Positions 3,734 through 56,488 of a stretch of 64,000 nucleotides of DNA are shown here, piece by piece. The stretch spans positions 269,219 to 333,218 of the forward strand of contig JAACJG010000001.1 of the NCBI GenBank assembly GCA_009917695.1, written 5' to 3'. This stretch comes from Candidatus Rifleibacterium amylolyticum (GTDB lineage: Bacteria; Muiribacteriota; Ozemobacteria; Ozemobacterales; Ozemobacteraceae). The notes below the pieces were generated by a model. It ran no database searches, was not told where the DNA came from, and saw only the letters and a list, made by a program, of their open reading frames with translations. A program made the position numbers and the translations under genes. Positions within the stretch are counted from its first letter, which is position 1, and each line of letters begins with the position of its first letter.

Positions 3734-3754
3734 TGTCATGTCTCCTGTTCCGGG

Positions 3755-4738: not shown

Positions 4739-4830
4739 TGGAGTTTTCTCCTTAATTTTACGTTTGTCTAATATACTGCAAACTCCATAAATAGTTTAAA
4801 TTTTGCGCAAAAATTCTGGAGCCTTTTGAT

Positions 4831-6117: not shown

Positions 6118-6305
6118 ATTTGTTTCCTCTCAAGCCAAATTAACGCGCCTGCAGCTCATATTAAGGCTTTTGCCCTGCTTCGGTCAAGTCTATCGCTGAG
6201 TGCTGTTCTGGCGATTCTCGACAACCTGTGCACGGCGCAGTGGATTTGTTGAAGATATCAGGGTAGAATGCTTAATATTAGAAATTAAAGTCAGTAACCT
6301 GCTTA

Positions 6306-25952: not shown

Positions 25953-26043
25953 AACCACGACCCTGTGATATTTGCGCGCCACCCGGCGCGCTAATCATAT
26001 TATCGCACGGTCAGCGACATATTGCCAGTCTCTTTTATGCCCC

Positions 26044-38537: not shown

Positions 38538-39349
38538 CACAAAACAGTTTCAGACAAAAAGGGCTGTTTGCCATTCTCACCGCTCTGGCGCTGAGCTATC
38601 TCTACCCCTGGCTTTATATGCTGCTGCGTTCATTTTTGCGCCACGAGCCAGGGCTTTCTGACGGCAATGGCCTGTTCACTCTCGAATATTACCGGCTCGT
38701 GCTTGGCAATGCCGGGTTTCCGACCTATCTGTTCAACAGCTTTTTTGTGCTTACCATAGTGCTGATCGCCAACGTAGTATTCTCAGTCATGGTCGGCTAC
38801 GCTTTCGCGCGTTACCGCTTTCCCTTCAAGAACGTCATGTTCTGGATGGTGCTGGTAACCCTGATGGTACCGAAGCAGACGCTGATGATACCTCTGCTTG
38901 ACCTGATGGTGCGTATGGGCTTGCACAACACCCTGTGGGCGCTGATATTGCCATTCTGCGTCGATGGCTTCAATCTTTTTCTGATGAAACAGTATATTCA
39001 GGGCCTGCCGCCAGATCTTGAAGACGCGGCCCGGGCTGATGGTGCCGGCGAAATCGGCATTCTCTGGCATGTTATCGCGCCGCTCAGCCGACCGGCTATA
39101 GCTGTGTTGATCATCAACACCGCGATCATCAACTGGAACTCATTTCTGTTTCCGTTGATTCTCACCGACACTGCTTCAGTGCGCACTTTGCCGGTCGCGC
39201 TTGCAATGTTTTCGCAGGGGCCGCATGCGACCGACTGGGGAGCTCTGATGGCCGGCGCTTCGGTCAGTTCACTGCCGATAATCGCTATCTTCTGGATGTT
39301 TCAGAAAGAAATCATCGAAGGTATCACCAGCGGCGCCCTCAAGGACTGA
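38534..39349 (+). CDS. ABC sugar-type importer permease, MalG/UgpE-like
   Basis: The 271-residue product has six TM helices and the EAA loop EDAARADGAGEIGILWHVI (about residues 162-180). It starts at an ATG overlapping the previous permease stop by four bases, so translation is coupled. It forms the second half of the import channel with its upstream neighbour. Its last 11 bases overlap the end of the convergent gamma-glutamyltransferase gene, leaving no space for a terminator between them. Confidence 0.92.
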   Translation: MTQNSFRQKGLFAILTALALSYLYPWLYMLLRSFLRHEPGLSDGNGLFTLEYYRLVLGNAGFPTYLFNSFFVLTIVLIANVVFSVMVGYAFARYRFPFKNVMFWMVLVTLMVPKQTLMIPLLDLMVRMGLHNTLWALILPFCVDGFNLFLMKQYIQGLPPDLEDAARADGAGEIGILWHVIAPLSRPAIAVLIINTAIINWNSFLFPLILTDTASVRTLPVALAMFSQGPHATDWGALMAGASVSSLPIIAIFWMFQKEIIEGITSGALKD

Positions 39350-40937
39350 TCAGGTCACAGGCGGCGCAGGAACCGTCGCGGCGCGGGTCGGCGAGTGCCT
39401 TGAACTGTGAGCCTTCGACGATAATTGCCGAGAGCAGTCCGAAATAATCGTCGCAACCTGGTTTGATTGTCGTCTCTGGAAACCATTGTTCAAGCGTTTT
39501 TACAAGCGAAGTATCGGGTTGCCATTCGACAATCAGTTTCTGGCGATGATCGAGAAAATAGCGCGGGCTGCTGATCAGATGGTCGGTCTGTTGTGGTCGG
39601 TGCAAATATCTTGCCAGCGCCAGGCCGACATTAAAAACTATGCGTTCAGAGCCGGCGCCGCCAATTGTCAGCACCGGCTCGCCGTTTCTGGTAACAATAA
39701 TCGGAGATTTGGTCGAAATTGGCCCGGCATCGGTCGGATAATTGTCGGGATAGCCTGCAACCGCGTCGGTAAAATTGCGCAGGCCGTTGTTGTAAAAAAA
39801 GCCGCCCGGCGAAAACTCGCCGGTGCCAAAGTGGCTGCCGAGCGTCAGGGTCATCGACACCAGCATGCCGTTTTTATCGGCTACGCAGAGGTGGGTGGTA
39901 TTGCCGGCTTCGACGACGTCGCCGCTGCTGTTGACCGCGACTTTGTCGGCGAATTCTATAAAACGATAAGGATCGTCTAAACATTCTGCAATATTTTCAT
40001 ACCTGGCCTGCAGTATTCTGCGCCCGGCGCGCGCCGTAGCCAGAATATCTTCGGGGCGTTGCTCATGCAGATCGATTCGGCTGTTCAGCAGGTCTTCTGC
40101 CAGTTTGATGCTGGCGATAGAGCAGGCTGGCGGCGGATTGCCAAAGAGCGAATAGTTCTGCCAGTCGCGGCGAACCGGCTTGACCTGACGGGTTTTGAAC
40201 AGAGCCAGATCGCTGATGCGGTATTGTGACCCATGCTTCTGCATATCAGCTATCAAAGCTATTGCGGTACTTCCGCGATAGAATGAGCGACCCTCATCTC
40301 TGGCCATTTCGGCAAGAGTTCTGGCAAGAAAAGGCTGTTTGAGAATCTGCCCGGCACGCAGCGGGTAGCCGTGCGGAGCCAGAAAGCTTATCGCTGCCGG
40401 ATCATCGATATTCGGCAGGGTTTTTTCGATGGTTTTTTCGAGATATGCGCTGATTTTGAAACCATTGGCGGCTGCGCTGACAGCTGGTTGCATAAGTGTC
40501 GCCAGCGTGCGGCTGCCATATTGACGGCGAAGTCGCAGCAGCAGCTCAGGAACTGTTGGCAGGCCGATGTGGTTGACGATTGTGCGATTGCCATTCAGGC
40601 GCGGGCGTTTGACCGAAGCATCCCAGGCCTCGACAAGGCCATCCGGTCGGTATATCAATGCGAAGCCGTCGCCGCCAATGCCGGAATTGCTGAAATCAAC
40701 GACACCAAGCATGAACCCGGCAGCGATCGCGGCATCGACGGCATTGCCGCCTTCGTGTAAGATCTGCAAAGCTGCCGCCGCTGCCAGCGGATGCCCGCAA
40801 CTGACCGCTCCCACATTGCCGGTTGCAACAAAGCAGCGCTCATCGCCGACAGAATCAGCCTGTGGCAGCCGCGCAGCAGCCTGATGGACAACTACCACCA
40901 GCATAAGCATCAATAAAATAAAGAGCTTGCGTTGCAT
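39339..40937 (-). CDS. ggt: gamma-glutamyltransferase
   Basis: The product is 532 residues from ATG 40937, which has AAGGG 9 bases upstream; an in-frame ATG 18 bases earlier lacks a ribosome binding site. A signal peptide ends near AAAR, so the enzyme is periplasmic. The precursor should self-cleave before T347 in GNTTHLCV, the nucleophile of the N-terminal hydrolase family. DPRRDGS near the C-terminus and GIGGDGFALIY near residue 75 are family markers. It transfers or hydrolyses the gamma-glutamyl group of glutathione and related peptides. The gene is monocistronic; its upstream region borders a large inverted repeat. Confidence 0.92.
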   Translation of the reverse strand: MQRKLFILLMLMLVVVVHQAAARLPQADSVGDERCFVATGNVGAVSCGHPLAAAAALQILHEGGNAVDAAIAAGFMLGVVDFSNSGIGGDGFALIYRPDGLVEAWDASVKRPRLNGNRTIVNHIGLPTVPELLLRLRRQYGSRTLATLMQPAVSAAANGFKISAYLEKTIEKTLPNIDDPAAISFLAPHGYPLRAGQILKQPFLARTLAEMARDEGRSFYRGSTAIALIADMQKHGSQYRISDLALFKTRQVKPVRRDWQNYSLFGNPPPACSIASIKLAEDLLNSRIDLHEQRPEDILATARAGRRILQARYENIAECLDDPYRFIEFADKVAVNSSGDVVEAGNTTHLCVADKNGMLVSMTLTLGSHFGTGEFSPGGFFYNNGLRNFTDAVAGYPDNYPTDAGPISTKSPIIVTRNGEPVLTIGGAGSERIVFNVGLALARYLHRPQQTDHLISSPRYFLDHRQKLIVEWQPDTSLVKTLEQWFPETTIKPGCDDYFGLLSAIIVEGSQFKALADPRRDGSCAACDLISP

Positions 40938-41028
40938 TGTTATGTGCCCTTTCATTTGACAGTTTCATAAAATTATAGCCGAGTTCTTACAACATTTTCA
41001 CTCAAAAATAAGGAAAGAAGAGTTTTTT

Positions 41029-41230: not shown

Positions 41231-44098
41231 TCAACTTTGTATCGCTTTCAGCAGCCAGGCTTCGACGGTCTGAGTTTTGCCTTTAACCGAGCTGATTGGA
41301 AGTTTATCGCAGGTAATGCCGGCAGGTATTGCGTCTATCAGTATCCCACTGATTATGACGCCGCCATCAGGCCTTTTGCCGGCAAGAGAGGCGAGGCGGG
41401 CCGAGAGGTTGACCGGATCACCGACGACTGTGCGTGACAGGCGGGCTTCGGCCGCTCCCATAATGCCGGCAACGACGACTCCGGTGTTGACGCCGGCGGC
41501 GACGTGATGGCCGGTTCTGGCAAACACCAGATCACTTATTTTCAGCGCCGTTCTGATGGCATTCGTCTGATAATCGGGATTTTCGTTATTCTGCTCAAAC
41601 ACAATCATGATTTTGTCTTCGATCATTTTGTCGATTTCGCCGCCATAAATGCGGGTTGCTTCATCCGATGCCTGCAATAAGCTTTGTAGCAGTTCAAATA
41701 TCTGGTGTTCGTCGTGGTTGCTCTGAAAACTCGCAAAATCACAGATTCCGGCAAATATGATGGCAGCATTGCGCAGTTCAGACTTTTTGGCAAGTTCGTC
41801 GATTTCCTGCCCGGCAACAATTTCGCGGCGCACAGATTCGCTGACAAATCCCTTCAGCAGATTTCCTTCACGCAGACCGGCAGCAATGCGGTTAAAAGCT
41901 GCTCCGATTTCAGCAAATTCATCAGGATGATTCTGACTGATCTCAATCTGGTAGTTGCCAGCGGTTATCTGATAGGTTGCATCGGTCAGCTCGCGCAACG
42001 GTCTGGTAAAATAACGGGCTCCAGCCAATGCCAGCGCAAAGCTTATAAGCGCCAGACCGGCGAGAAAAAACAGAGCTTTCTTTTCGAGATCTTTGCGGTA
42101 GGCGGCGAAGCTGGCAATAGTTTCGCTGCCGGCCACCGTATAAAATGAATAATTGCAGGGAAATGCATGTCTGATGGTGATAGTCTCGTCTAACTTTTCT
42201 ACGCCAGCAGTCTGGGCCCGATTGAAGTGTGAATTTTTTGCCAGACTCAACAGGTGCGGGCGCCTGGCCTCGGTTTCCTCAAGAGCATACTTAAGCGTAT
42301 CCGTAGATCGCTCATTTCCCCATATTGCCAGGCGGGGTGAGCGGGAATTCAGATCGAGAAACCGCAGCGGAAAGTCGTGTACCGCATTTTTTTCGTCCAT
42401 GTGCCAGGTTATGTAGGCGTGGAAGCGGTTACCCCAGCGTATCGGCATACCGAAAAGCTTGTTTTTCTTATACGTCGTTCTGATGTCGAGATACATGGGA
42501 GAATAGCGGCGAAAATTGAAAAAGATGTCTGGCCCGAACAATTGCAAAAAGAAATCACGCGAATATTCGCCCTTGAGATCGTCCTGAATATGATGACCGC
42601 CATGGCGAGTGATTACTTTGCCATGGTTGTTGTGATAATCGAGAATCTCTACGAAGCGGTCGTTGAAAAAGCCGGTGAAATCGCTTTCTTTGCTTTCGGC
42701 CCGATACTGGTCGTCGTCGCGCATCGAGACTGCAACGAATTCGCCGTCGTCGCGGCACATCCATAGAGATGTGAAGTAACGGCTCAAAAGCTGCCTGTCG
42801 AGAGTCTGCAGCAGCGTGATGCAGTAGTTGAAATCATCAGAGCCAGTGTAAGGTTCATGCGTGTAACTGCTGATTCGTTCAATAGAATCAAAGGTGCGCA
42901 CCAGATTCAGGCGATTGAGAAAGTTGTCGTTCGTCTGCTGGTCAAGGTCGTTAAGTTCACCAGAAAGCTTTTCAGAAGTAGCGCTTTGGATGTTGTTGTA
43001 ACTTGTCTGTAAATATTCGTTGGCCAGATAGATCATTGAAAACAGTGGTTGTATGAACAACATGAGAAAAATCAGCGGTATCAGGAATCTGATTTTGAGG
43101 TCAAACCCTCGGTTCAGCATTATTTTCTGGCCGATCATTATAAAAAGAAGTGTCGATATGGCAGCAAGAATGATAACAAGAAACTTTCCGGTTCTGCGGT
43201 TTGCACTGTCAGCGACAACAGGTCCTGCGACTGCAAACAGGCGGGTCTCACTGCGCTGGTCAATTGCTGCCAGATAGATTCGGCAGCCGTCTATATCGAC
43301 TGTTTCAGACGTGGGGCCGGCTTTGGCGATAAACTTTGTCAGTCTGGCACGCAGTGAATCTTTTTTGTCGAACCACGGCGAGAATACGGGCTGTCCTGTG
43401 CCTGCCGGCAAACAGCCGGTTCCGTAATCTTCTTTTGCGTTGCGAATCTTATTTTTCAGTGATTTCAGCCAGGAAATCGGGTGCAGGTCTGCGAGTGCCA
43501 GTAAGTAAATCTCCGGGTTCAGACTTTTGCCGAAGATGACGCGCATGCCATTTTTGCTGCGAAAGGGAATGATTGTGCTGCTGATGAGAGAACCGGCTTC
43601 TTCTTCGAGAGTCGCTGCAAAGTAGCCTGTCCAGAGAGGATTTTTATCGACTATCATATTCTTGCTGAAATTTTGCAGTATCGCTTCGATTCCGAGTCGG
43701 GTTCCGTATCTGAAAGTTCTGAAGTGCCTGCGGTCTTCGCTCAAACGAAACATGAATGCAATTTCGCATGGATAATCGACTTTATCGAGCAACTCGCTGG
43801 CAATTTCCTGGAAAAAAATACTGGCGTCGGCAGATCTTGCCCGCAAAGAGTAATATTCTTCTGCCTGCTTTCCATCGAGGATCACCTTTCGGGCAAGGCG
43901 TGACACGTTCATCTGAAACTGGCTGTCTGAAGACATTGGCATTGCCAGTTCTTCCAGGCGCGAGGCGATGACGCGAGCCCGTTCTTCTTCGAAGGCGTCT
44001 GTCTGCATTCTGGCCGCTTCTTGCATGGCAAAATAGACGCTGACAGGCGGAAAAAACAGAATGACAGAGATCAGAAGCAGCATTAAAAGTTTTTTCAT
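41231..44098 (-). CDS. receptor-type class III cyclase, substrate-site (C2-like) half, pair 3
   Basis: The 955-residue product has TM1 (about 3-25), a TM hairpin (about 303-356), TM4 (about 676-700), HAMP, the linker GFVSESVRRE, and a cyclase domain (about 775-945). The first metal aspartate is replaced by G784 (FAGICDF), while the second is kept as D828 (DKMIEDK, with the usual Gly before it changed to Glu). Substrate residues are all present: K824, D894, N897 and R901 in VVGDPVNLSARL. It is the natural partner of the upstream gene, whose stop overlaps its start as ATGA. The closest relative here is the C2-like gene at 46979-49891, which shares the LPISxVKGKTxTVEA ending. Confidence 0.92.
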   Translation of the reverse strand: MKKLLMLLLISVILFFPPVSVYFAMQEAARMQTDAFEEERARVIASRLEELAMPMSSDSQFQMNVSRLARKVILDGKQAEEYYSLRARSADASIFFQEIASELLDKVDYPCEIAFMFRLSEDRRHFRTFRYGTRLGIEAILQNFSKNMIVDKNPLWTGYFAATLEEEAGSLISSTIIPFRSKNGMRVIFGKSLNPEIYLLALADLHPISWLKSLKNKIRNAKEDYGTGCLPAGTGQPVFSPWFDKKDSLRARLTKFIAKAGPTSETVDIDGCRIYLAAIDQRSETRLFAVAGPVVADSANRRTGKFLVIILAAISTLLFIMIGQKIMLNRGFDLKIRFLIPLIFLMLFIQPLFSMIYLANEYLQTSYNNIQSATSEKLSGELNDLDQQTNDNFLNRLNLVRTFDSIERISSYTHEPYTGSDDFNYCITLLQTLDRQLLSRYFTSLWMCRDDGEFVAVSMRDDDQYRAESKESDFTGFFNDRFVEILDYHNNHGKVITRHGGHHIQDDLKGEYSRDFFLQLFGPDIFFNFRRYSPMYLDIRTTYKKNKLFGMPIRWGNRFHAYITWHMDEKNAVHDFPLRFLDLNSRSPRLAIWGNERSTDTLKYALEETEARRPHLLSLAKNSHFNRAQTAGVEKLDETITIRHAFPCNYSFYTVAGSETIASFAAYRKDLEKKALFFLAGLALISFALALAGARYFTRPLRELTDATYQITAGNYQIEISQNHPDEFAEIGAAFNRIAAGLREGNLLKGFVSESVRREIVAGQEIDELAKKSELRNAAIIFAGICDFASFQSNHDEHQIFELLQSLLQASDEATRIYGGEIDKMIEDKIMIVFEQNNENPDYQTNAIRTALKISDLVFARTGHHVAAGVNTGVVVAGIMGAAEARLSRTVVGDPVNLSARLASLAGKRPDGGVIISGILIDAIPAGITCDKLPISSVKGKTQTVEAWLLKAIQS

Positions 44099-46977
44099 AT
44101 CGATGCCTCAAGGTCGAGGAGCTCATAGCTGCCTTCGTTATGCACACAGAAATGTTGTTTCGCTGCAGGAATCATTTGTATCATTGCCTCAGAAACGATC
44201 ACGGCGGTGTGTCTGCTGCTTTTGCTCTGCGCTTCGAGCTGTTCGGCAATATTTCTTGCCTTGCCGATGATCGTGAATTCAGAGCGGTTGCCAGATGAGA
44301 GAGCTCCGGTGATAACTGTTCCATGGGCAAGCCCTATGCCAATATCATAGCTGAACAGATTTCGCAGTCGTCTTTCGGCAATAATCTGGTGATGGCGGCG
44401 CATCATCGCCGCGGCAGCTCTGATGGCGTTCAGACATGCATCTGCACCTTCTCCTGGAAAAAGTGCGACAACGGCATCACCGATAAATTGATCGACGCGA
44501 CCGCCGTTGCTGTTGATCGCTTCGACCATGCCCCGCAGGTGCTGGTTGAGCATCTGACTGATCAGCACCGGGGGGTTGGCTTCTGAATGGGTTGTGAAGC
44601 TGCGAACGTCGGAGAATAGAATCACCCCGGCAATTTTTTGTGCACCGGTTTGAGCGGCAACTGAAGCGACCTGATTGTCGAAGGTTGTCGAAACGAACTT
44701 GCCCAGCAGCTGCCGCTCTTTTAGGCCAATGACCATGTTGTTGGTTGCTGTTGCCAGTTCTCCCAGCTCATTGTCATATTCATATTCGAAGCGCTGACGA
44801 TAATCTCCGGTTGCGATGGCGGCAAAGATGCCTGAGAGCAGGCCGGTCGGTTCTATGAATAGACGCGCTGCCCCGGCCGCAAGCACGTAGATAAGCAGCG
44901 ACATCAGACAGACGCCGCATAAAAGCAGAAGCTGACGCCAGTCAGTTTCTCTGGCCAGATCAGAAACATCGATAAAGGCTCCACCATACCAGGCGCCGAG
45001 TTTGAGCAGTGGTTCGTAAACAAATATCTGGCCTGACTGTCGCAGAATCAGATCTATCTCTGAGCTGGCGGCTGATTCTGCAAAACTTAGCAGCTTCTGG
45101 CCGTTTTCTGACCCGATGAATTGCCGTGCAGTGGCTGGCAATATTCTTTGGGTTGCCGATAGATTGCGATTGAAGCAGGCAAAGGTGACTTCGCCGTTTC
45201 GGTTGGCGTTCATCAGGTCGTGGTCAAGCATGTATTCGAAAGTTCTCATGGTGCTTACGCTGATGACGAGGTATACAGGAAGTCCTCGCTCATCGATAAT
45301 CATGCTGTTGTAGAAGAAATTTATGGAGTTGTTGCCGGTCTTCATGTAAGTCAGGCGTTCGACTGAATCAAGAAACAATTCTCTGGCAACTGATTTGCCC
45401 ATTTTATCGAAGAGACCGAGCAGGGTTTTTTGCATGGCAGACATTCTGATTGCAGGCATTTGCGGGTAGTATTTCGAGAACAGGCGTGAAATCGATTCGC
45501 AGGCGACAGCGAAATAGTCGAGGTGAAAGCGTGCCATCGCCGTGTGGGCCGGCGATGCTGAAATCTGGCGGGGTTCGTGACCCGGCTTGAAAATCAGCAT
45601 GTATTGAAGATTGTAGTTGCGTTTTTTGAGCTCAGCTTCAAGAGAAGCGAAACCCACCATCTGACTGGAAGGCATGGCGAACTGCTGTTGCAGATCGGGG
45701 TTTTTCAAAAGATTGTTCAGTATCATCGCACACCAGTTACTGGTGCTCTCTGACTTCTGGTCGAAGTTGCGCAGGGTTGTGCGGGCGTAGTTGATGCGGC
45801 TTCTTACTCTGGCCTCGGCCGACTCATCGATAAGATGTAGAACCATGATGACCAGGAAGGCGACCGGCAACATACCGGTCATGAAAAAAAGAAGCCTGAA
45901 TGTCGTAGAAAGCGAAAGAATGCCGCGCCGGCGGTTTTGCAGAAAATAGAGTATCCAGGCGAACAGCCCGATTGTCGCGAAAAGTTGCAGATATGATGTT
46001 TGTGCCGAAGATGCCTTGCCGGCATCGCTGACGATGGCAAATGAATAAGATGTTTCGGTGTCGATGAAATCATGAAAGAGCCAGCGGCCATCGACGTGGT
46101 TGATCTCTCTTGGTTTGAGGTCGCTGCCGCCCCAGTGTTTTCTGAGAACCTGCAACGCTTTGTGAGACTCGGCAATTTTGTGCAGATGCTCTGGCATTAT
46201 AGGTTGAACTGCCGGTTCGAGCTGTGGTGAATTTACAAAAACTGCGAGGCCGATACCGGGCTCAGTTTTACTTATCCGATCAGCCAGTTTTTGCAGCGCG
46301 CCCCTGGTGTCTTCGATGAAGGCGCCGGGTAACAAACTGATGAAGCCGATAAACTGATTGTTGGCGATTTCAAGTACTCGCCAGCACAGGTAGTAGTGAT
46401 TGCCCTCGTAAAGCACCGGTGTCAGTCGACCCTGGCGTTCGGTTGCCAGGTGCTGTGGTGAAGAGTTTTCGCCAAACATGCCGCTGATGAAGCGTTCGTG
46501 CAGGCGATTGCTCGAAGTCTCGCCGGTGTCGCCGGAAAGATGGCAGAGTGCTTCGAAAACTCTTATAAAGGCTCGCTTCTTCTGGTTCATCAGTCCGTTG
46601 CCTACGATGAGCTCGAAGCGGTCACGGGATTTTATGAATGTCCAGGTCTGGCATTGCTTTGCTATTTCTGGATCGAGATTTTCGGCAAAAGACTTTATTA
46701 AAAGTGAGGCCAGTTCTCGATCAGAATTGTTCGCGGCTTTTTCGAGATAATCGGCAATTGCCTTGAAAGCCTGTTCTGCCTGACGTTCACGTGTGAATTC
46801 AGATCTGACTCTGGCTGCCAGAATATTTGCGCGATTCAGCCACTCATTTTCTGCGCGCTCTTGTCGGGACTGGTTAAATCGTTGCAGCGAACCGGAAAAA
46901 GTCAAATACAAAAGCAGACCGAGAATGATCGGGAAGCAGAACACGAAGGCTGAGCGCAGATCAAATTTTTGTCGCAT
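44095..46977 (-). CDS. receptor-type class III cyclase, metal-site (C1-like) half, pair 3
   Basis: The 960-residue product has TM1 (about 10-28), a TM hairpin (about 329-382), TM4 (about 682-706), HAMP, the linker KFVSTTFDNQ, and a cyclase domain (about 780-950). The metal aspartates D790 (FSDVRSFT) and D834 (DQFIGD) are intact. The substrate Lys is Q830, the adenine-selecting Asp is K906, and the Arg is Q913 (GKARNIAEQL); only N909 of the substrate set remains. The gene starts one base after the stop of the previous gene and overlaps the next by ATGA. It fits as the metal-binding partner of the gene at 41231-44098. Confidence 0.92.
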   Translation of the reverse strand: MRQKFDLRSAFVFCFPIILGLLLYLTFSGSLQRFNQSRQERAENEWLNRANILAARVRSEFTRERQAEQAFKAIADYLEKAANNSDRELASLLIKSFAENLDPEIAKQCQTWTFIKSRDRFELIVGNGLMNQKKRAFIRVFEALCHLSGDTGETSSNRLHERFISGMFGENSSPQHLATERQGRLTPVLYEGNHYYLCWRVLEIANNQFIGFISLLPGAFIEDTRGALQKLADRISKTEPGIGLAVFVNSPQLEPAVQPIMPEHLHKIAESHKALQVLRKHWGGSDLKPREINHVDGRWLFHDFIDTETSYSFAIVSDAGKASSAQTSYLQLFATIGLFAWILYFLQNRRRGILSLSTTFRLLFFMTGMLPVAFLVIMVLHLIDESAEARVRSRINYARTTLRNFDQKSESTSNWCAMILNNLLKNPDLQQQFAMPSSQMVGFASLEAELKKRNYNLQYMLIFKPGHEPRQISASPAHTAMARFHLDYFAVACESISRLFSKYYPQMPAIRMSAMQKTLLGLFDKMGKSVARELFLDSVERLTYMKTGNNSINFFYNSMIIDERGLPVYLVISVSTMRTFEYMLDHDLMNANRNGEVTFACFNRNLSATQRILPATARQFIGSENGQKLLSFAESAASSEIDLILRQSGQIFVYEPLLKLGAWYGGAFIDVSDLARETDWRQLLLLCGVCLMSLLIYVLAAGAARLFIEPTGLLSGIFAAIATGDYRQRFEYEYDNELGELATATNNMVIGLKERQLLGKFVSTTFDNQVASVAAQTGAQKIAGVILFSDVRSFTTHSEANPPVLISQMLNQHLRGMVEAINSNGGRVDQFIGDAVVALFPGEGADACLNAIRAAAAMMRRHHQIIAERRLRNLFSYDIGIGLAHGTVITGALSSGNRSEFTIIGKARNIAEQLEAQSKSSRHTAVIVSEAMIQMIPAAKQHFCVHNEGSYELLDLEASI

Positions 46978-46978
46978 G

Positions 46979-49891
46979 TCAGACTGTTTTCCTGGATACG
47001 CTGAAAGCTTCTACTGTGTGGGTTTTACCTTTAACCCGGCTGATTGGAAGTTTTTCACACAGGTAATCATCTGACATTTTTTCGACCGTACTGCCTGATG
47101 CGACTATGCCGCCATCTGGAAGATTGGCAGCAACAGCGGCCAGGCGCGCTGCCAGATTCACCGTGTCACCGACAACAGTTTTTGAAAGCCTGACATTGCC
47201 GGCTCCCATGACCCCGGAAACAACTTCGCCTGAAGTAATACCCGATGCAGTTTGCAAAGAGTAGTCTTTCTGTATGGCATTCTTTATCGCGATTGCCGTG
47301 GCAATAGCGGCATCAACCTGTTTATGTTCGTTCTGCTGCCGGTTCTCGAAAACGATCATGACTTTGTCTTCGATCATCTTGTCAATTTCGCCGCCATATT
47401 GTTCTACTGCTGCTACTGCGGCAGAAAGGTGAGCCTGAAGTATTTCGAAGATTTTCTGCGGGTTGTGCCGCTGCTGAATTGAGTGAAAGTCCCTGATCGA
47501 TGAGAACAATACCGTTGCTCTGGTATTGCGGGCAATATCCGTGCTGGTAAGCTCTTCGCGCTCAGTAAGTTCTTTGACGCTGTCAGAGACGAAGCTGCTT
47601 AGCAGTTCGCCCTGCTGCAGGCCAGTGGCCATTTTGTTGAATGCGTCTGCCGCTATGGCAAATTCATCAGGGTGGCTTGGTGTCAGGCGTATTGCATAGT
47701 TGGCCTCTGCAATCTGTCTGGTCGCCAGGGTCAGCTGGCGAATGGGAATAGTGAAATACAAAGAAGTGAGCAGTGCCAGGACGATTCCGCCAACTGCGAT
47801 CCAGCCGAGATAACGCACGGCCTCTGCTATCAACTCTCCGGTTATACTTTCGATGTCGCGCGTGATTCTACTTCCACATATTATGAAGTCTGAATAGCGG
47901 GCCGGCCGTACTTCGAATACAGGCGTTCCTGAAGCCTGATAATTCTGCATGAAAAGACGGCTGCCGGTAACCAGTGCCTGGTTACCGAGTTCGACAAGTT
48001 CCGGAAAATCTCGACTGAGTAAGTTCAGCGCTTTGGGCCGCGCGCCAATATACTGATCATTGCCAAACAGTGTAAACAGAGGGCTATGCTGGTCGGTTCT
48101 CAGGTCCTTTTCTGGAAACTGATCGCGTATGCCTGCAGAATCGAAAACCCAGGTTATTATGTATTTTGCTTTATCATTTCTGGTCATAGGAATGGTGAGC
48201 AGGGCATTGGTGTCCATGAATGATTCCTGCCAGACCAGTGAACCGAAGTCTTCTCTTATCTTGTAGTAACTTTTGGCTCCAAACATATTCAAAAAAAAGC
48301 TGTCGAGCAGTTCAGCCTTCAACTCATCAAATTCTATGTTCTGGCCTGGTTTGCCTTGATTCTGGCGTCTTTTTTCAGGATCATCTTTTTCAAGATATGA
48401 TTTATAGCGCTTAATGAAATATTCTTCAGCGACAGCGTTGCCACCTGTTGTAAATCTGTATCTTTTCTGGTCACGATCGTAAATTATTGAAAAAAATGGT
48501 TGAGACTCGTCATAGACCCAGATGTTGGTGAAGGCAGGTCGGCCATAAATTTCATGCATTTTTCTGGCGGCATTTAGAATAAGCTCGTTGATCGAGGTTG
48601 ATTCAGGCAGCCCGACAAAGGCGGCAAGTTTTTCAGTAGAATTGAGGCTCTTTGCATAATTGACCGCGAATCTGAAATTGGCGAGGGTTTTGACGTCGAG
48701 TTCTACAAGATCTTCGGCCAGTTCTTCGATAGCGCGGTTCTTTTCCTTCTTGAAGTTTGCGGCGACATACTCATTCGCAAGGTATGCAGAACTGAGAAAT
48801 GGCAGCATGGTCACTATAACGAAAATGGCCAAAATGAACATCATGACGGAAATATCTCGACCACGACCGAAAATTATGTTTTCAACGATAATTTTGAAAA
48901 AGCAGCAGCCAGTTAAGGCAAAAACTATTATCAGCAGAAGCATTCTTGGCTGTCTGGCATTTAAGGGGGCCTTCGCTGCGATTATGACCCGATATGGCTT
49001 TTTCGGATCGTAATCACTGGCCAGCAGAAGATAGTTTTGCTGATGATGAATGAAGCCACGGTTCCCATTTACTTTCATCAGATTACTGACCGATGTGAGC
49101 AACTGTTGTCTGTCTTTGAAAAATGCTGATGCCTTTATTATTCTGTGGTTGGGGTTCACGAAAGCAAGTCCCATGTCTTCATGCTGCCATGCCTCTATCT
49201 TTTGCCTGGCCCGGGCATTGGTATCGATAAGGCTGAGGTCGGCAAGAAAATTCATGAGAAAGGCTGCCCGCAACCGGAGCATAAGCAAAAGGCGATAAGA
49301 ACCGTGCTCTCTAATTATTGTACGCTCGATTTTATCACCATCACCGTCTTCAGCAAGGACTTCGATATCGAAATACATTTTGAGGCGATGCCTTGCGAGA
49401 TCGTTTATGGCATTTTCAGCTGTCGCTCTTTTTTCAGGCGTATTTCTGTTCATCTGATAATAGCGCAATTGGACGATGAAATCTTCGAGTATGCTTTCTG
49501 AAACAGTTTTGCCGTTTCTCATGGTCAAGCATAAATCTCTGCCATTCTGGCGATAGATAAATGAACTCTCGCCACCGAACCACATGCTCGTTACTTCCTG
49601 CATCAGATCCTTTACGAATGCGAGAAGTTCATTGTTTACCTCATTTTCATCACGGGCCAGAAAGGCGTCAGATCTTGTTCGACGAAGTGCCATGAAAAGC
49701 TTACGGTAAATTTCAGTGACCGGGTTTATCAGAATATCCTGGCGCTGCAGTTCATTTTGCATGCGGTGAATTAACTGTTTCTCGGACTCATGCAACATGG
49801 TTAACGCTGAATTCTTCATCGAAGAATAAATAACCAGTGCAGGGGCTGACATGAAGAAGATTGCAAGTATAATCAGAACAATCTTTTTCAT
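46979..49891 (-). CDS. receptor-type class III cyclase, substrate-site (C2-like) half, pair 2
   Basis: The 970-residue product has TM1 (about 3-22), a TM hairpin (about 314-370), TM4 (about 687-710), HAMP, the linker SFVSDSVKEL, and a cyclase domain (about 788-960). The first metal aspartate is S798 (FSSIRDF); animal C2 domains also carry Ser here. D842 is kept in DKMIEDK. K838, D909, N912 and R916 (VVGDTVNLAARL) are intact, predicting ATP binding. Its start shares one base with the upstream stop (TAATG), so it is coupled to the C1-like gene. A single base separates its stop from the next pair. Confidence 0.92.
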   Translation of the reverse strand: MKKIVLIILAIFFMSAPALVIYSSMKNSALTMLHESEKQLIHRMQNELQRQDILINPVTEIYRKLFMALRRTRSDAFLARDENEVNNELLAFVKDLMQEVTSMWFGGESSFIYRQNGRDLCLTMRNGKTVSESILEDFIVQLRYYQMNRNTPEKRATAENAINDLARHRLKMYFDIEVLAEDGDGDKIERTIIREHGSYRLLLMLRLRAAFLMNFLADLSLIDTNARARQKIEAWQHEDMGLAFVNPNHRIIKASAFFKDRQQLLTSVSNLMKVNGNRGFIHHQQNYLLLASDYDPKKPYRVIIAAKAPLNARQPRMLLLIIVFALTGCCFFKIIVENIIFGRGRDISVMMFILAIFVIVTMLPFLSSAYLANEYVAANFKKEKNRAIEELAEDLVELDVKTLANFRFAVNYAKSLNSTEKLAAFVGLPESTSINELILNAARKMHEIYGRPAFTNIWVYDESQPFFSIIYDRDQKRYRFTTGGNAVAEEYFIKRYKSYLEKDDPEKRRQNQGKPGQNIEFDELKAELLDSFFLNMFGAKSYYKIREDFGSLVWQESFMDTNALLTIPMTRNDKAKYIITWVFDSAGIRDQFPEKDLRTDQHSPLFTLFGNDQYIGARPKALNLLSRDFPELVELGNQALVTGSRLFMQNYQASGTPVFEVRPARYSDFIICGSRITRDIESITGELIAEAVRYLGWIAVGGIVLALLTSLYFTIPIRQLTLATRQIAEANYAIRLTPSHPDEFAIAADAFNKMATGLQQGELLSSFVSDSVKELTEREELTSTDIARNTRATVLFSSIRDFHSIQQRHNPQKIFEILQAHLSAAVAAVEQYGGEIDKMIEDKVMIVFENRQQNEHKQVDAAIATAIAIKNAIQKDYSLQTASGITSGEVVSGVMGAGNVRLSKTVVGDTVNLAARLAAVAANLPDGGIVASGSTVEKMSDDYLCEKLPISRVKGKTHTVEAFSVSRKTV

Positions 49892-52836
49892 TAAGCCTGA
49901 TCTCCGGTCGTTAACTCGAAAAGACCTGTCGCAGCTAGAGGCACGCAGTTAAAGTCACATGAGTCGACGACTGCGGCAAAGTCGTGAGAAAATATGATTC
50001 TGGTGTGGCAGCCCTGCTTGCTCAACTGCTCGTATCGCTCAGCTTCGGCTTTTGCTTTGCCAATGATACAGAATTCTGAACGCGAAGGTGTAATCAGAGG
50101 CCCTGCAACTATCTGACCGTATTCAAGCCCTATGCCAAAATTATAGACAAACTGTCCGCTGCTTTTTCTGTGGTTCATCGTATTCTGGTGTTCTGTATAC
50201 ATGGCTGTTGCCGCCAGAATAGTCCTTCTCCTGCTGTCTTCAGGTTTCTGGTCGGGAAAAAAGGCGACGATGGCATCTCCGATAAACTGCTCTACCTGTC
50301 CGCCGAATTGCTGAATAGTTGCTGACATTGTTTCGAGATGTCGATTGAGCATGTCTGCAATAATTTCGGGCGGGTTACTTTCAGAAATGGTCGTGAAATC
50401 TCTGATATCAGAAAAAAGCACAGTTCCATTCATTGTTCGTGCTGTCTTTCTCACTTGCGAGTCGCTGGTGCCATCGAGACTCTGCTCCAATGTCGTAGAG
50501 ACGTATTTTCCCAGTCTGATGCGGCGTTTGAAACCTTCAAGCATCATGTTGATACTTTCGCCGAGCTGACCGATTTCGTCAGTTCTGCCAAAATTGAGGT
50601 TGCTCTTAAGATTCCCAGCGCTTATCTTCAGCAGGGTCTGGTTTATTGCCGCGAGAGGCTTGAGCATGTGCGCTGCGGCGAATGAAGCCATGACATACAT
50701 CAGACAGATCAGTAGAATTGCGACACAGGTCAGAATGAGGCGTTTGACACTGCGTTCCCGGTTAATTTCAGCCAGAGAAACGACGCAGCCACAGACGTAA
50801 CTGCTCTGCTGAGACAAAGGCGAAAAAATATACATGTGGCTGTTATCGGTTATAGATTTTTCGAACAGTGAACTGCGGCATCGGGTGATAAAGTTCATGG
50901 CATTTCTACCGATCCGGCTGTTGAGAACATTCATTTTTTTGAAGGGGAATATCGAAAATTCCGAATTCGTGAGCTCTTCAGCGGCAAGGAAAATGGTGGA
51001 ATCAGAAACATTGAGAGAATCTAGTTCGCGCGCCAGAAAATTTCTGAACAGACGTTCTGAATTGGCGGCAAATCCGACATAACTCTTTATCATTCCCTGA
51101 TCTGAGAAAACCACCGTGTAAAAATAGTCAGCGCTGTTTTCGCCGAATTTCATGGCTATTTCCTTTTCATAGGAATGCATGAAGATGTCTTCGAGAAAAT
51201 GTTGGCTGAAACCGGAAAGAATGCTGTGAAAGGTTTTTTGGGAGGCATCGAGGTTGATTTCCGGCAGGTTCCAGAATTTTGAATATCGTCGGTTAATTTG
51301 ATAAGTGGCGGGCGCAAATAGATCCATAACCGTTTTGGCACTCTTGTAATGTCTCTGGTCATGCATTATCAACTCTGAGATGCCGCCAGGCACGAACATG
51401 TAGCAGTAGTCAACTGTCAGTTCCATTTTTTCGAGATGATTTCTGAGAATCTTGAAGGCCTGTTCCGCATCTTGCCGATGATTGGTTGTGAACAGTGGCT
51501 GAAGCTCAAATTCTTTGATTGCCTGCGAAATGTTATAGCCGAAAAGCTGCTTGAGGTTATCGCTTTTTTCGCTTATTCTTGCCAGTTTTTCGGTATTTTC
51601 ACGCCGCAGCTCGGTCAGCGAAGTCGAGTAGGCTTCTTCGATAAGACCATGTGCCAGGGCAATCATCAGCAAAATAGGGAGCATGCCGGAAAAAACGAAA
51701 AGAACCCGAAAAGAAACCGCCAGCGGCAACCCGGCCCGTCCGGTTTTGTGATAGAAGTAAAAGAATATCAGCAGCCATAAACCCAGGGTGGCGGCGAAAA
51801 TTGGCAGAGTGCCAACATCAGAGCGCTGCAGCAATCTGGGAACCGGAGCGAATACCACTGCGTCATAGGGCACGTCCAGAGAAGTCATGCTTTGCATGAA
51901 CAGATGATCGTCTGCTTCTTTAAACTTGCCGGCATCTTTCTGCGCAACATCCTGTTTAACATCACTATTGAGCTCGGCTAGAAGTTTTTTGAGGTGCTCT
52001 GCCTGAGCAGGCTGAGCTGCAAACTGCCCGGGTAAAACTATCGGCAGATCCCTGGCAAACACCCCGACCGGAACAAAGGCTACAGCAAGACGTTTGTTTG
52101 AGTCTGCAAACATTCTCGTCGCAATATGGCGCAGGGCAAAGTCAAGATCGATAACTCTCTCATTCGGAACGAAACCGACGACTGCTGCAAAGGTGCGATC
52201 TGACGACCTGAACTGCCGCCAGTAGATGTAACAGGCTTTTCCCTCGAAAACAACCGGGGTCAGTCTGCCTTCGCGATAGCGCCCGAGCTGCAATGGAGCC
52301 GAATGAGGGCCCAGTATGGTTCTGATCAGCCTTTCTTTCTGATTGATCTGAGACAGGCTCAGGTCTGGATTGTTGGCGAATTCAAGAAGAGTATTGGTAA
52401 GTCTTTCCATTATGCGCAGACGCGAAGACTCAAATCTGCCACCGGTTATAGCCCGGGAATTATTATTATCGATCGAAAAAGCCCAGATTTTGCTGGCGTT
52501 GTCGATGAATCCCTCAGGGAAGTGCCGTTCCAGACTGGCACTGAGTAATTCTACAGAAAATGAAGCGGGCCCATGGCGTTCCATTTCATCGCTCAGGCGG
52601 TTGCCGTATGAGGTGAACTGGTCTGCGAAAGTCAGATTCGACATTACCGTGGCCAGTGTCATCTCAGACATCTCGACGAGGAACTGCATTTTTCTGTCGC
52701 GATCATGTTTCTGCTGGTAATTATAAAAAACCAGCGCGGCATAAACCATTGCCAGGCTCAGCAAAACCGGGCTCAGCAGCCCAAATGCATACCGATAGAA
52801 TATTTGAAATTTTTCTGAACCTTTGTTCACGACCAT
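49891..52836 (-). CDS. receptor-type class III cyclase, metal-site (C1-like) half, pair 2
   Basis: The product is 981 residues from ATG 52836. The frame extends to a GTG at 52872, but a TATAAT box (52858-52863) lies inside that extension and no ribosome binding site precedes it, so the shorter start is preferred. The layout is TM1 (about 12-32), TM hairpin (about 340-392), TM4 (about 699-722), HAMP, the linker KYVSTTLEQ, and a cyclase domain (about 800-975). Metal aspartates D810 (FSDIRDFT) and D854 (EQFIGD) are intact. The Lys is Q850, the adenine-selecting Asp is K927 and the transition-state Asn is A930; R934 remains (GKAKAEAERY). It is the first gene of the four-gene cyclase operon, divergent from dnaE. 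Confidence 0.91.
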   Translation of the reverse strand: MVVNKGSEKFQIFYRYAFGLLSPVLLSLAMVYAALVFYNYQQKHDRDRKMQFLVEMSEMTLATVMSNLTFADQFTSYGNRLSDEMERHGPASFSVELLSASLERHFPEGFIDNASKIWAFSIDNNNSRAITGGRFESSRLRIMERLTNTLLEFANNPDLSLSQINQKERLIRTILGPHSAPLQLGRYREGRLTPVVFEGKACYIYWRQFRSSDRTFAAVVGFVPNERVIDLDFALRHIATRMFADSNKRLAVAFVPVGVFARDLPIVLPGQFAAQPAQAEHLKKLLAELNSDVKQDVAQKDAGKFKEADDHLFMQSMTSLDVPYDAVVFAPVPRLLQRSDVGTLPIFAATLGLWLLIFFYFYHKTGRAGLPLAVSFRVLFVFSGMLPILLMIALAHGLIEEAYSTSLTELRRENTEKLARISEKSDNLKQLFGYNISQAIKEFELQPLFTTNHRQDAEQAFKILRNHLEKMELTVDYCYMFVPGGISELIMHDQRHYKSAKTVMDLFAPATYQINRRYSKFWNLPEINLDASQKTFHSILSGFSQHFLEDIFMHSYEKEIAMKFGENSADYFYTVVFSDQGMIKSYVGFAANSERLFRNFLARELDSLNVSDSTIFLAAEELTNSEFSIFPFKKMNVLNSRIGRNAMNFITRCRSSLFEKSITDNSHMYIFSPLSQQSSYVCGCVVSLAEINRERSVKRLILTCVAILLICLMYVMASFAAAHMLKPLAAINQTLLKISAGNLKSNLNFGRTDEIGQLGESINMMLEGFKRRIRLGKYVSTTLEQSLDGTSDSQVRKTARTMNGTVLFSDIRDFTTISESNPPEIIADMLNRHLETMSATIQQFGGQVEQFIGDAIVAFFPDQKPEDSRRRTILAATAMYTEHQNTMNHRKSSGQFVYNFGIGLEYGQIVAGPLITPSRSEFCIIGKAKAEAERYEQLSKQGCHTRIIFSHDFAAVVDSCDFNCVPLAATGLFELTTGDQA

Positions 52837-52857
52837 GCACTCTTTTTTCTGAGGCAT

Positions 52858-52882
52858 ATTATAACAGAACACCTGTTACAGG
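52858..52882 (-). promoter_or_regulatory. promoter of the cyclase operon with a palindrome over the spacer
   Basis: On the minus strand a consensus TATAAT occupies 52863-52858, about 20 bases before ATG 52836, and no good -35 box is present. CCTGTTACAGG (52872-52882), an 11-base palindrome, covers the -35 side of the spacer. A weak -35 with a palindrome there is typical of a site for an activator or repressor. Confidence 0.5.
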
Positions 52883-52978: not shown

Positions 52979-55900
52979 ATGTACCATACCAATTTTGTTC
53001 ATCTTCATGTACACAGTCATTACAGTCTGCTCGACGGCGCGGCACCGGTAAAGGGCATAATCGATGCTGCCCGGCGCTTTCGCATGCCGGCCATTGCCAT
53101 CACAGACCACGGCAACATGTTTGGCGCCATCGAGTTGTATCAGTATGCACTGAAGCGAGGTGTCAAGCCGATAATCGGCTATGAAGCCTATCTGACCGAT
53201 GGTTCGCACAAGGATCGCACGCGTGAACGCTCGCCCTATCATATAGTTTTGCTGGCGAGAAACATTGAAGGATACAAGAACCTGGTAAAACTCTCGACTA
53301 TTGGTTTTACCGACGGTTTTTACTACAAGCCACGCATAGATTTTGAACTGTTGGAAAAGTACAGCGAGGGCGTTATCGCCTTAAGCGCCTGTCTTGCTGG
53401 CGAAGTTGCCCAGTGCCTGCTCAAGGAAAACCGTGAAGCAGCAGTGTCTGCCATCAGACGCTATCAGAAAATATTCGGCCCCGAAAACTTTTATGTCGAG
53501 ATTCAGGATCACGGCATTGCTGAGCAGCAGAAGATTCTTGATGCGCTTGTCGAGGTTGCACGGTCATGTGGTGCCCCAATAGTAGCAAGCAATGACAGCC
53601 ATTATGTTAAACCAGAAGACTGGGAAGCCCAGGATGCTTTGCTCTGCCTCAACACCAACGCTAAAATCGACGATCCCAAGCGCTATCGCTTCGAAACGCA
53701 CGAATTCTATCTGAAGTCGCCGCAGGAAATGAGCGACATTTTCGCGAAATATCCTGAGGCCATCTCAAACACCTTACGTATCGCCGAACGCTGCAACGTG
53801 CAGCTCACTCTTGGCAAGTCGATTCTGCCTAACTTCCCGATTCCAGAGGGCAAAACCTCTGAGAGCTATATGACTGAGCTTTGCTTTGAAGGGCTTAAAG
53901 AGCGGTATGGCAGCGAAACGCCCGACGAAGTTATCTCTAAAAGGCTTGAATATGAGCTTTCAGTAATCAAGCGCATGGGTTTCTGCGACTACTTTCTCAT
54001 CGTCTGGGATTTCATCAAAGCCGCCCGCGAGATGGGTGTCCCGGTCGGCCCCGGCCGCGGCTCTGCTGCTGGCAGCATAGTTGCCTATCTGCTGCGCATT
54101 ACCGATATCGACCCGATCAAGTATGGACTGCTGTTCGAGCGCTTTCTCAACCCCGAGCGCATCAGCATGCCAGATATCGATGTTGACTTCAGCGACGACG
54201 GGCGCCAGAAAGTAATCGATTATGTCGTCGAAAAATATGGCCGCAACCGGGTTTCGTCGATCATCACCTTCAACTTCATTCTGGCCAAGATGGCGATACG
54301 CGATATCGGCCGTGTCATGGGCATGGAACTCTCAGAGGTCGATCGTATCGCCAAGATGGTTCCCGAAAAACCTGGCACGCACTTGAAAAAGGCAATTTAC
54401 GAGACGCCAGAGCTGAAAGAGCTTATAGAAAACGGCAGTCAGCAGCAGAAAAAGCTGCTGCGCATCGCCGAAACCGTTGACGGACTGGTCAGGCATACTG
54501 GTGTGCACGCCTGCGGTATCGTTATTTCGCACCAGGATCTGATGGACATCGTTCCTCTCTATTACGACAAAAATGAAGAACTGATGACCCAGTATGAGAA
54601 GAACGCCATCGAGAGCATCGGCCTGCTCAAGATGGATTTTCTTGGTCTCAAGACGCTGACCATCCTGCAGCGTGCCCTCGAAAACATTAAAAAGTCGCAG
54701 GGCGTCGATGTCGATATCGAGCATCTGACATTCGATGATACCAAGACCTACGAGCTGCTGCAGCAGGCTTTGACGCTCGGTGTGTTTCAGCTTGAATCGG
54801 CGGGCATGCGCAATTTGATTGCGCGCCTCAAGCCATCGGTATTCGAAGACATCATAGCGCTGCTCGCGATGTACCGACCCGGCCCGTTGAGTTCAGGCAT
54901 GGTCGACGATTTTGTCGAACGCAAACACGGGCGCAAGTCGCTCGACTACCCGCATCCTGATCTCGAGCCGGTTTTGCGCGACACTTATGGCGTTTTCCTG
55001 TATCAGGAACAGGTCATGCAGACCGCCAACGTGCTGGCCAACTTTACCATGGCTCAAGCCGATGCTTTGCGCAAGGCGATGGGCAAAAAAATCGCCGAAG
55101 TCATGGAAAAGATGGGCAAGTTGTTCGTCAAAGGCGCGGTTGAACGCGGCGTGCCCGAAGAAAAGGCGCAGGAAATCTTCGATTTGATGGCTGGTTTTGC
55201 CGAATACGGCTTCAACAAGTCGCACTCGGCTGCTTATGCGGTTGTTACCTACCGCACCGCCTATCTCAAGGCGCATTACCCGGTTGAATTCATGGCGGCC
55301 GTGCTCTCGTCAGAAATCAATGACACCGACAAGATCGCCGAATACGTCGATGAATGCCGAACCATGGGCATCGAGATTCTGCCGCCGGATATCAACGTTT
55401 CAGAAGGCCTGTTCACAGTTGATAACGGCAGAATTCGCTTTGGCATGAATGGTATCAAGGGTGTCGGCGCTGGCGCTGTTGAGTCGATCGTTCAGCAGCG
55501 TGAAAAAGATGGGCCCTATAAGTCGCTTGGCGACCTGACTCGTCGCGTCAACACCGGCCAGGTCAACAGCCGGGTCATCGATGCGCTGATCAAGGCCGGT
55601 GCCATGGAATCTTTTGGTCTCAAAAAGAGTCAGCTTATCGCCATGGCAGGTGAGGCGCTCAAATCCGGGCAGTCGGCACAGAAGAGTCGCAATGCCGGCC
55701 AGATCACATTTTTCGATGTCTTTGGCGATGAAGCCGAAGGAATGGGCGATATCGAGCTGACGCCGCCTGACATACCAGAACTCACAGAAAAAGAGCTGCT
55801 GACAGCTGAAAAAGAGGTTTTCGGTTTCTATCTTACCGGTGATCCGTTCAATGCGGTGGCGCCGCTGGGGCGGGTGTTCTCAACGCACTCGCTCAGCAGT

Positions 55901-56488
55901 ATAGCTGAAGCCGGTGAAGGCAAAATCTGCCGAATAGCCGGAATTCTAACGGCTTACAAGCGACATATCACCAAAAAAGGCGATTATATGGCCTTTCTGA
56001 CCATCGAAGCCGATAATGTGGCACTCGATGTAACGCTTTTTCCGAGGTCATATCAGGAATACCATCATCTGCTGAAAATCGATGAGCCATTGTTCATGGT
56101 TGTGCAGACACAACTCGTCGATGGCACGGTGAAGGTAAATGCTGAAAAAATACTGACAATCGATGACTTCAACGAAGAAGGCTTTTCGAAAATAACTTTT
56201 GTGGTGCCGCAATCGGTTGCCAGTCGTGAGCATTATCAGAAACTGCTGGGAGTTTTGCAGAAATGCCCAGGCAGCACGCCTTTCATGATCAGGATTATTT
56301 CGCAGGAAGGCCCGAAGGTTCTGCTCAAGCCACCGGCAAGGTTTCGCATCAGTTTGAACGCGAATGTAATCAAGGCCTGGGAAAAGATTTGCGGGCGCAA
56401 TTCGATCAAAATTGAATTTCCGTTGATAGAAGTGGCCAGTCGAAACAATTATCGTCACAAGAAAAGTTTTAGAGCTGCAGAAGGTTAA
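52979..56488 (+). CDS. dnaE: DNA polymerase III alpha subunit
   Basis: The 1169-residue product is close to the length of Escherichia coli DnaE. An N-terminal PHP domain begins HLHVHSHYSLLDG. The polymerase active-site aspartates are D401 and D403 in PDIDVDF, the same numbers as in E. coli, and are preceded by PVGPGRGSAAGS. The tau/beta-binding and finger regions follow, with an OB-fold near residues 985-1065 (CRIAGILTAYKRH). This is the replicative polymerase. The start has no ribosome binding site, but an upstream extension is unlikely because the PHP motif begins at once. The next gene follows after 20 bases and may be co-transcribed. Confidence 0.97.
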   Translation: MYHTNFVHLHVHSHYSLLDGAAPVKGIIDAARRFRMPAIAITDHGNMFGAIELYQYALKRGVKPIIGYEAYLTDGSHKDRTRERSPYHIVLLARNIEGYKNLVKLSTIGFTDGFYYKPRIDFELLEKYSEGVIALSACLAGEVAQCLLKENREAAVSAIRRYQKIFGPENFYVEIQDHGIAEQQKILDALVEVARSCGAPIVASNDSHYVKPEDWEAQDALLCLNTNAKIDDPKRYRFETHEFYLKSPQEMSDIFAKYPEAISNTLRIAERCNVQLTLGKSILPNFPIPEGKTSESYMTELCFEGLKERYGSETPDEVISKRLEYELSVIKRMGFCDYFLIVWDFIKAAREMGVPVGPGRGSAAGSIVAYLLRITDIDPIKYGLLFERFLNPERISMPDIDVDFSDDGRQKVIDYVVEKYGRNRVSSIITFNFILAKMAIRDIGRVMGMELSEVDRIAKMVPEKPGTHLKKAIYETPELKELIENGSQQQKKLLRIAETVDGLVRHTGVHACGIVISHQDLMDIVPLYYDKNEELMTQYEKNAIESIGLLKMDFLGLKTLTILQRALENIKKSQGVDVDIEHLTFDDTKTYELLQQALTLGVFQLESAGMRNLIARLKPSVFEDIIALLAMYRPGPLSSGMVDDFVERKHGRKSLDYPHPDLEPVLRDTYGVFLYQEQVMQTANVLANFTMAQADALRKAMGKKIAEVMEKMGKLFVKGAVERGVPEEKAQEIFDLMAGFAEYGFNKSHSAAYAVVTYRTAYLKAHYPVEFMAAVLSSEINDTDKIAEYVDECRTMGIEILPPDINVSEGLFTVDNGRIRFGMNGIKGVGAGAVESIVQQREKDGPYKSLGDLTRRVNTGQVNSRVIDALIKAGAMESFGLKKSQLIAMAGEALKSGQSAQKSRNAGQITFFDVFGDEAEGMGDIELTPPDIPELTEKELLTAEKEVFGFYLTGDPFNAVAPLGRVFSTHSLSSIAEAGEGKICRIAGILTAYKRHITKKGDYMAFLTIEADNVALDVTLFPRSYQEYHHLLKIDEPLFMVVQTQLVDGTVKVNAEKILTIDDFNEEGFSKITFVVPQSVASREHYQKLLGVLQKCPGSTPFMIRIISQEGPKVLLKPPARFRISLNANVIKAWEKICGRNSIKIEFPLIEVASRNNYRHKKSFRAAEG

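Follow-up and report, generated by a model that had tools for sequence, protein, structure and literature searches.

Predicted two-receptor heterodimeric adenylyl cyclases with C1-like and C2-like halves in Candidatus Rifleibacterium amylolyticum and its relatives

Why would a bacterium keep four receptor cyclase genes side by side, each of them lacking part of its catalytic set? The question is raised by a 64,000-nucleotide stretch of the Candidatus Rifleibacterium amylolyticum genome (assembly GCA_009917695.1, contig JAACJG010000001.1, positions 269,219 to 333,218; this whole stretch is hereafter the window), in which four tightly joined genes, here named P4, P3, P2 and P1 in their order on the minus strand, occupy positions 41231-52872. 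An initial annotation, made from the sequence alone, had described their products as alternating C1-like and C2-like cyclases and had taken the alternation as an argument for obligate heterodimers over random decay. The analysis reported here indicates that the operon very probably encodes two class IIIb heterodimeric membrane receptor adenylyl cyclases (ACs), P4 with P3 and P2 with P1. Heterodimers rather than decay are strongly supported in silico, and we infer that heterodimerisation is obligate, that ATP is the substrate and that two signals are integrated.

The order on the minus strand (C1-like, C2-like, C1-like, C2-like) and the joins between successive genes, a 1-base overlap (P4/P3), a 1-base gap (P3/P2) and a 4-base overlap (P2/P1), were reproduced from the open reading frames. 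All four products showed a Guanylate_cyc domain (PF00211, E values from 1e-10 to 1e-14), indicative of the class III fold, together with a HAMP domain, that of P2 falling under its Pfam cut-off. The cyclase domain of the AlphaFold2 model of P3 could be superimposed on CyaB (3r5g) over 181 residues at 2.1 Å, with a Z score of 23.4. In a hydropathy scan each half showed about four strong hydrophobic segments, which bracket two periplasmic modules of ~300 residues; weaker additional segments were present in P4 and P1.

Six catalytic columns were scored (metal 1, Lys, metal 2, Thr/Asp, Asn and Arg), the residues of P4 being counted from the ATG at 52836. Both C1-like members retained the two metal aspartates (D810/D854 in P4, D790/D834 in P2), had glutamine in place of the lysine (Q850 and Q830) and carried no Lys at the C-terminal KGK position. 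In P4 the threonine was changed to cysteine and the asparagine to alanine (A930), R934 being kept; in P2, T902 and N909 were kept and the arginine was changed to glutamine (Q913). Each window C1-like member therefore lacked the Lys plus one of Asn and Arg, not both. The C2-like members had lost the first metal aspartate (S798 in P3, G784 in P1) and kept K838, T905, N912, R916 and K954 (P3) or K824, T890, N897, R901 and K939 (P1). Every residue quoted in the initial annotation was found at its place, including K927 of P4, K906 of P2, D909 of P3 and D894 of P1, but the identification of these last four positions as the substrate aspartate column had to be abandoned: they correspond to the Asp of a GDxVN motif. 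The substrate column lies seven residues N-terminal of the Asn, a spacing whose mammalian equivalent we take to be D1018...N1025, and it is occupied by Thr in P1, P2 and P3 and by Cys in P4. As the column holds Thr and not Asp, the operon cyclases are of the class IIIb (K/T) type. The C2-like sets that had been called complete do contain Lys, Asn and Arg, with Thr (T905/T890) as substrate residue instead of the claimed Asp; as for the substrate losses ascribed to the C1-like members, the Lys to Gln change stood in both, but R934 of P4 and T902/N909 of P2 are still present.

The same division of residues was found throughout the genome. The source assembly (5.39 Mb) encodes 61 Guanylate_cyc domains, of which 60 were read and counted, the one at C6:152394-152885 not having been recovered by the profile. 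Of these 60 domains, 36 could be grouped into 18 pairs, 13 of them adjacent genes and five single proteins of ~2000 amino acids (two in locus L013, two in L016 and one in L017), and all 18 consisted of one C1-like and one C2-like half. Three of the fused receptor cyclases (L016 3889-15908 and L017 4460-10510) lie on the contig of the operon, to the right and less than ~55 kb past the window end. Among the C1-like halves, both Asp were retained in 18/18, Asn was lost in 17 and Arg in 16; the C2-like halves had Lys, Thr, Asn and Arg in 18/18 each and had lost the first metal Asp in 17. The K/T pair is that of class IIIb adenylyl cyclases. In the C2-like half of one pair (L020, 5595-11533) the first metal Asp is kept and the second is Glu, the same site being broken in another way. 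The full catalytic set, which a homodimer would need in every subunit, was present in none of the 36 paired domains and in 23 of the 24 unpaired ones. The sole unpaired degenerate domain found in the genome (L023, 2406-4670; residues ERGSAT) belongs to a 754-amino-acid protein.

Relatives were represented by 40 loci of 19 other genomes in the phylum, picked from match lists by adjacency or similarity, and neither by residues nor at random, and by four named Riflebacteria loci; the best named relatives of the window C1-like domains were from Candidatus Riflebacteria and Ozemobacter. Five loci with soluble double-cyclase candidates (L129-L133) were omitted from the tree and the pair counts, and three domains (L119, L136 and L036) were left unpaired, their partner being partial or missing. 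This yielded 61 pairs (18 own and 43 from relatives), 23 fused into one protein of roughly 2000 amino acids with C1 first and 38 split, present in the sampled families f1, f3 (genome G029) and f6 (G026). The composite site, formed by the two Asp of C1 and the Lys, Thr/Ser, Asn and Arg of C2, was complete in 61/61 pairs and the reciprocal site in none: both Asp were found in every C1-like half, and Lys, Asn and Arg in every C2-like half, with Thr in 60 and Ser in one. The Lys of the KGK motif, which contacts the triphosphate in animal C2 and was not used to assign the C1 and C2 labels, was held out. Its column contained 17 Lys and one Arg in the 18 own C2-like halves and Lys in none of the 18 C1-like ones, and over the 61 pairs Lys or Arg occurred in 59 C2-like halves and a single C1-like half. 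One of the omitted loci, L129 (1490-6082, genome G027), encodes a protein of 1530 amino acids that combines AAA_16 with a pair of cyclase domains (DKDL-R and -KQTNR) in a layout like that of soluble AC, and is possibly another complementary tandem.

These counts bear on the alternative that each half is active as a homodimer despite its unusual residues and that the pairs are just paralogous receptors lying next to each other. Some class III homodimers, asymmetric or with non-canonical residues, are indeed active, and the Lys is still present in 13 of the 18 own C1-like members. Nevertheless, the reciprocal site is incomplete in every pair, the C1-like Asp pair and the C2-like K, T/S, N and R are preserved in every pair, 23 pairs are fused, and receptors that are unpaired but share this architecture (L025 and L029) retain full sets, making this alternative very unlikely. 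L025 and L029 display the same four-transmembrane (TM) layout and a sensor region detectably related to that of the pairs, and may be their homodimeric relatives. A second alternative concerns the product of the composite site, which could be another cyclic nucleotide (cGMP, cCMP or cUMP), since not all class III cyclases make cAMP, and Cya2 (2w01), titled a guanylyl cyclase in the PDB, was among the matches. The Lys and the nearly invariant Thr at the base-reading columns of the C2-like halves speak against it, and we give it little chance; the 19 cNMP-binding domains of the genome, one of them within the window (Table 1), do not discriminate the base of the product.

As a control for expansion we took a Leptospiraceae genome that has 75 cyclase domains, 60 stretches covering 61 of the 75 places and 61 domains being read. 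Full sets were found in 59 of them, the others being one DEDGNR and one lone GKDTGK domain (L225, genome G060) whose losses, in contrast to those of the paired type, affect residues of both halves. Among the 80 loci, those from outside Riflebacteria, a biased set retrieved via a conserved (Y/D)K(F/Y)(I/V)GDA pattern, contained nearly always complete domains and no complementary pairs. In the 33 genomes reached through these loci, all the matches listed for the C1-like profile above 178 bits were from Riflebacteria or from G038. This assembly is titled Candidatus Methylomirabilis (L042), carries Riflebacteria-type cyclases and looks the same as G012, a genome of the present phylum, by its match places, so it is probably mis-titled. 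Random decay, by which the paired domains would be degenerating cyclases or pure pseudoenzymes, could draw on the lone degenerate L023 and on a copy of P1 interrupted by TAG in the relative G005. However, the losses are split between the partners and not scattered, the pattern recurs across genera and families, 59 of the 61 domains read in the equally expanded Leptospiraceae genome are intact, and dN was much smaller than dS in all comparisons for which dS could be estimated (several of the dS values were saturated). Decay is therefore the most improbable of the alternatives weighed here.

Do the two kinds of halves share a history? In a tree built without the seven trait columns, and leaving out L014, L023, four short domain rows and the domains whose substrate column holds Asp, 61 of 62 C1-like rows formed one clade (SH-aLRT 92) and 62 of 63 C2-like rows fell on one side of a branch (SH-aLRT 88). 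A reduced, careful tree gave ultrafast bootstrap/SH-aLRT supports of 68/92 for the C1-like and 63/91 for the C2-like group. The pair L128 was placed elsewhere, among canonical domains, in the main tree and was set apart again in the reduced one. This complementary pair (1791-6120, genome G026), whose receptors carry dCache_1, is likely an independent second origin. The distances among C1 halves mirrored those among C2 halves over the pairs (r 0.794) and over the 18 own pairs (r 0.817), a correlation reached by 0/2000 shuffles in both cases; it is expected if pairs duplicate as units, and reflects shared history, not contact.

Within the operon, P4 and P2 are nearest relatives in the reduced tree (100/97), as are P3 and P1 (100/96), so the four genes look like, and probably are, a tandem duplication of one pair. 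The order P4-P3-P2-P1 between a dnaE-like gene and a gamma-glutamyltranspeptidase gene recurs in G005, the relative with the interrupted P1. In G001, P4-P3-P2 extend up to the contig end, with a shortened P4, and in G002 P4-P3 stand alone, a hybrid histidine kinase replacing the second pair at the same locus. The initial annotation had also suggested that C1-like and C2-like halves mix freely, giving four receptor combinations from one operon. As P4/P2 and P3/P1 are nearest relatives, their interfaces may still be compatible, and such mixing would not contradict two heterodimeric cyclases. Yet G002 has the first pair alone, the second being absent as a unit, partners co-diverge and fusion holds 23 other pairs together; the loss of a pair as a unit and the co-divergence speak for fixed partners, and free mixing appears rather unlikely.

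The association of the two halves was modelled on a natural fusion of L016, a different pair from those of the window operon (residues 800-1986, 19 relatives, AlphaFold2 without templates; pLDDT 80.5, pTM 0.58). Residues 1-1186 of the model aligned onto residues 396-1242 of human AC9 (9u3r) with a Z score of 35.8, at 2.6 Å over 356 residues; a second AC9 structure (6r3q) gave 36.3, at 5.5 Å over 384 residues, and soluble AC ~32. In this predicted docking a single alignment spans C1 and C2 of AC9, and of soluble AC, in the same order. Foldseek by itself did not rank the AC9 and soluble AC matches at the top. Profile comparison pointed in a similar direction. The C1-like profile matched VC1, IIC2 not being among the matches listed, and scored soluble guanylyl cyclase (sGC) alpha above beta; the C2-like profile scored IIC2 above VC1 and sGC beta above alpha; and on ADCY10 the former picked the first domain and the latter the second. 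Counter to this parallel, the best stretch of the C2-like profile on AC8 and AC9 was the C1 half. The claim that alternation argues for heterodimers over decay is thus backed in silico by reciprocal loss, the held-out Lys, mirrored trees, fusions, the predicted AC9-like docking and the control genome.

It should be considered that several points weigh against the heterodimeric interpretation, in addition to the active unusual homodimers mentioned above. P4 retains Arg, and P2 retains Thr and Asn. The C1 and C2 labels use the same residues as the 61/61 count, which is partly circular, so the independent support comes from the adjacency of one half of each kind, from the held-out Lys and from the control genome. 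The deep clade supports are just moderate; one main origin plus L128 is taken as the simplest reading. The predicted docking may reflect the class III cyclases in the AlphaFold2 training set, the inter-domain error not having been returned. Finally, as the sensors match no Pfam family, the integration of two signals is something that we infer.

In the mechanism that we propose, both metal aspartates would come from the C1-like half, whereas the C2-like half would provide Lys and Thr for adenine binding, Asn and Arg for the transition state and the triphosphate-type Lys. A single working site would thereby be formed at the interface, the reciprocal site being degenerate, like its counterpart in animal adenylyl cyclases. 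A four-TM receptor comprising two periplasmic modules and a HAMP domain belongs to each half. Most likely, cAMP would be made at a single composite site on which both receptors act, and its output should accordingly be set jointly by two different receptors. The eight sensor segments gave no match in Pfam up to E 1 except weak ones under the curated cut-offs, and no fold was assigned to them because the Foldseek and VIA-align lists for the P3 model were occupied by cyclase-domain matches. Among IMG/VR viral contigs, a search with P3 returned no relative.

The window contains a second locus of this kind, a further pair of adjacent cyclase genes on the plus strand. Divergent from it lies a gene combining HATPase_c_2 (anti-sigma kinase-like) and cNMP-binding domains, a candidate cAMP-controlled partner-switching kinase. 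Elsewhere, two overlapping genes encode SpoIIE-type phosphatase receptors with HAMP and likewise a four-TM, double-module layout. Coordinates are collected in Table 1.

Table 1. Genes and domains of the operon, its flanks and other features of the window
Feature	Positions	Strand	Remarks
P4, C1-like receptor cyclase	49891-52872	minus	GTG start; ATG at 52836 gives 981 amino acids
P4 receptor part (hydrophobic segments, two ~300-residue modules with no Pfam match, HAMP)	50470-52725	minus	
P3, C2-like receptor cyclase	46979-49891	minus	open reading frame and Pfam domain
P3 cyclase domain, modelled	46982-47560	minus	matches class III cyclases
P2, C1-like receptor cyclase	44095-46977	minus	open reading frame and Pfam domain
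P1, C2-like receptor cyclase	41231-44098	minus	open reading frame and Pfam domain
dnaE-like gene	52979-56488		operon flank; named from its translation
gamma-glutamyltranspeptidase	39339-40955		operon flank
C1-like partner of the other window pair	6306-9197	plus	DKDIEA
C2-like partner of the other window pair	9194-12151	plus	SKHTNR
HATPase_c_2 and cNMP-binding protein	4831-6117	minus	divergent from the 6306/9194 pair
SpoIIE-type phosphatase receptor	20288-23155	minus	
SpoIIE-type phosphatase receptor	23145-25982	minus	weakly detectable with cyclase sensor profiles

How do these enzymes compare with known cyclases? Animal membrane ACs (AC1-AC9, e.g. AC9, 6R3Q/9U3R) likewise have two dissimilar cyclase domains, the metal Asp in the first and Lys, Asn and Arg in the second, with one active and one degenerate site, as appears to be the case in Riflebacteria; the predicted docking is alike, and the fused bacterial forms also follow the order membrane part, C1, membrane part, C2. 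They differ in being class IIIa, with Asp in the C2 substrate column (here Thr905/Thr890, class IIIb), in having bundles of six TM segments instead of four TM segments, two periplasmic modules and HAMP per half, and in being single chains with C1 then C2, whereas the window pairs are separate genes and the fused L016 and L013 single-chain. Human ADCY10, a soluble class IIIb tandem that carries AAA/TPR parts, resembles the pairs in its two dissimilar domains, C1 then C2, but is soluble and has no receptor domains. Soluble guanylyl cyclase is also a heterodimer of dissimilar alpha and beta halves from two genes; it makes cGMP, has a haem/NO receptor and is eukaryotic. Rv1625c/Cya and other bacterial class III cyclases share the fold and the catalytic residues, but are homodimers with two equal sites. 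The Pseudomonas aeruginosa class III cyclase-like chain 6YII, for which we know of no receptor, aligned over both domains of the L016 model (Z 26.7). Its PDB title lists it as an ATP-binding protein/transcriptional regulator. According to a report on chytrid fungi, the rhodopsin-cyclases RGC and NeoR, two different cyclase-bearing receptors required together, form obligate heterodimers in which RGC1 and RGC2 retain the relevant residues; unlike the present pairs, they are light receptors that make cGMP (PMC8815786). A 2022 review states that bacterial class III ACs homodimerize and places the duplication and fusion that yielded the animal C1/C2 enzymes early in eukaryotes (PMC9552081). No bacterial heterodimeric class III cyclase was found in a literature search that covered few subscription papers and no bioRxiv preprints, nor did we come across a description, in bacteria, of two-half receptor cyclases in which each half has its own sensor, sometimes fused in the animal order.

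It is fairly probable that heterodimeric two-input receptor cyclases evolved in Riflebacteria independently of those of animals, on two or more occasions (in the main clade and in the dCache pair L128), and that the stages put forward for the origin of animal ACs coexist in a single genome: likely homodimeric receptors of like architecture, heterodimers encoded by two genes and pseudo-heterodimers made by fusion. In bacteria, dozens of pairs, some split and others fused, appear to have arrived at the animal C1/C2 division of labour. They would offer natural experiments on the passage from a symmetric enzyme to a heterodimer with one site, on the reason for keeping the second site and on the control of one centre by two receptors, and may provide receptor-cyclase parts for engineered two-input cAMP switches.

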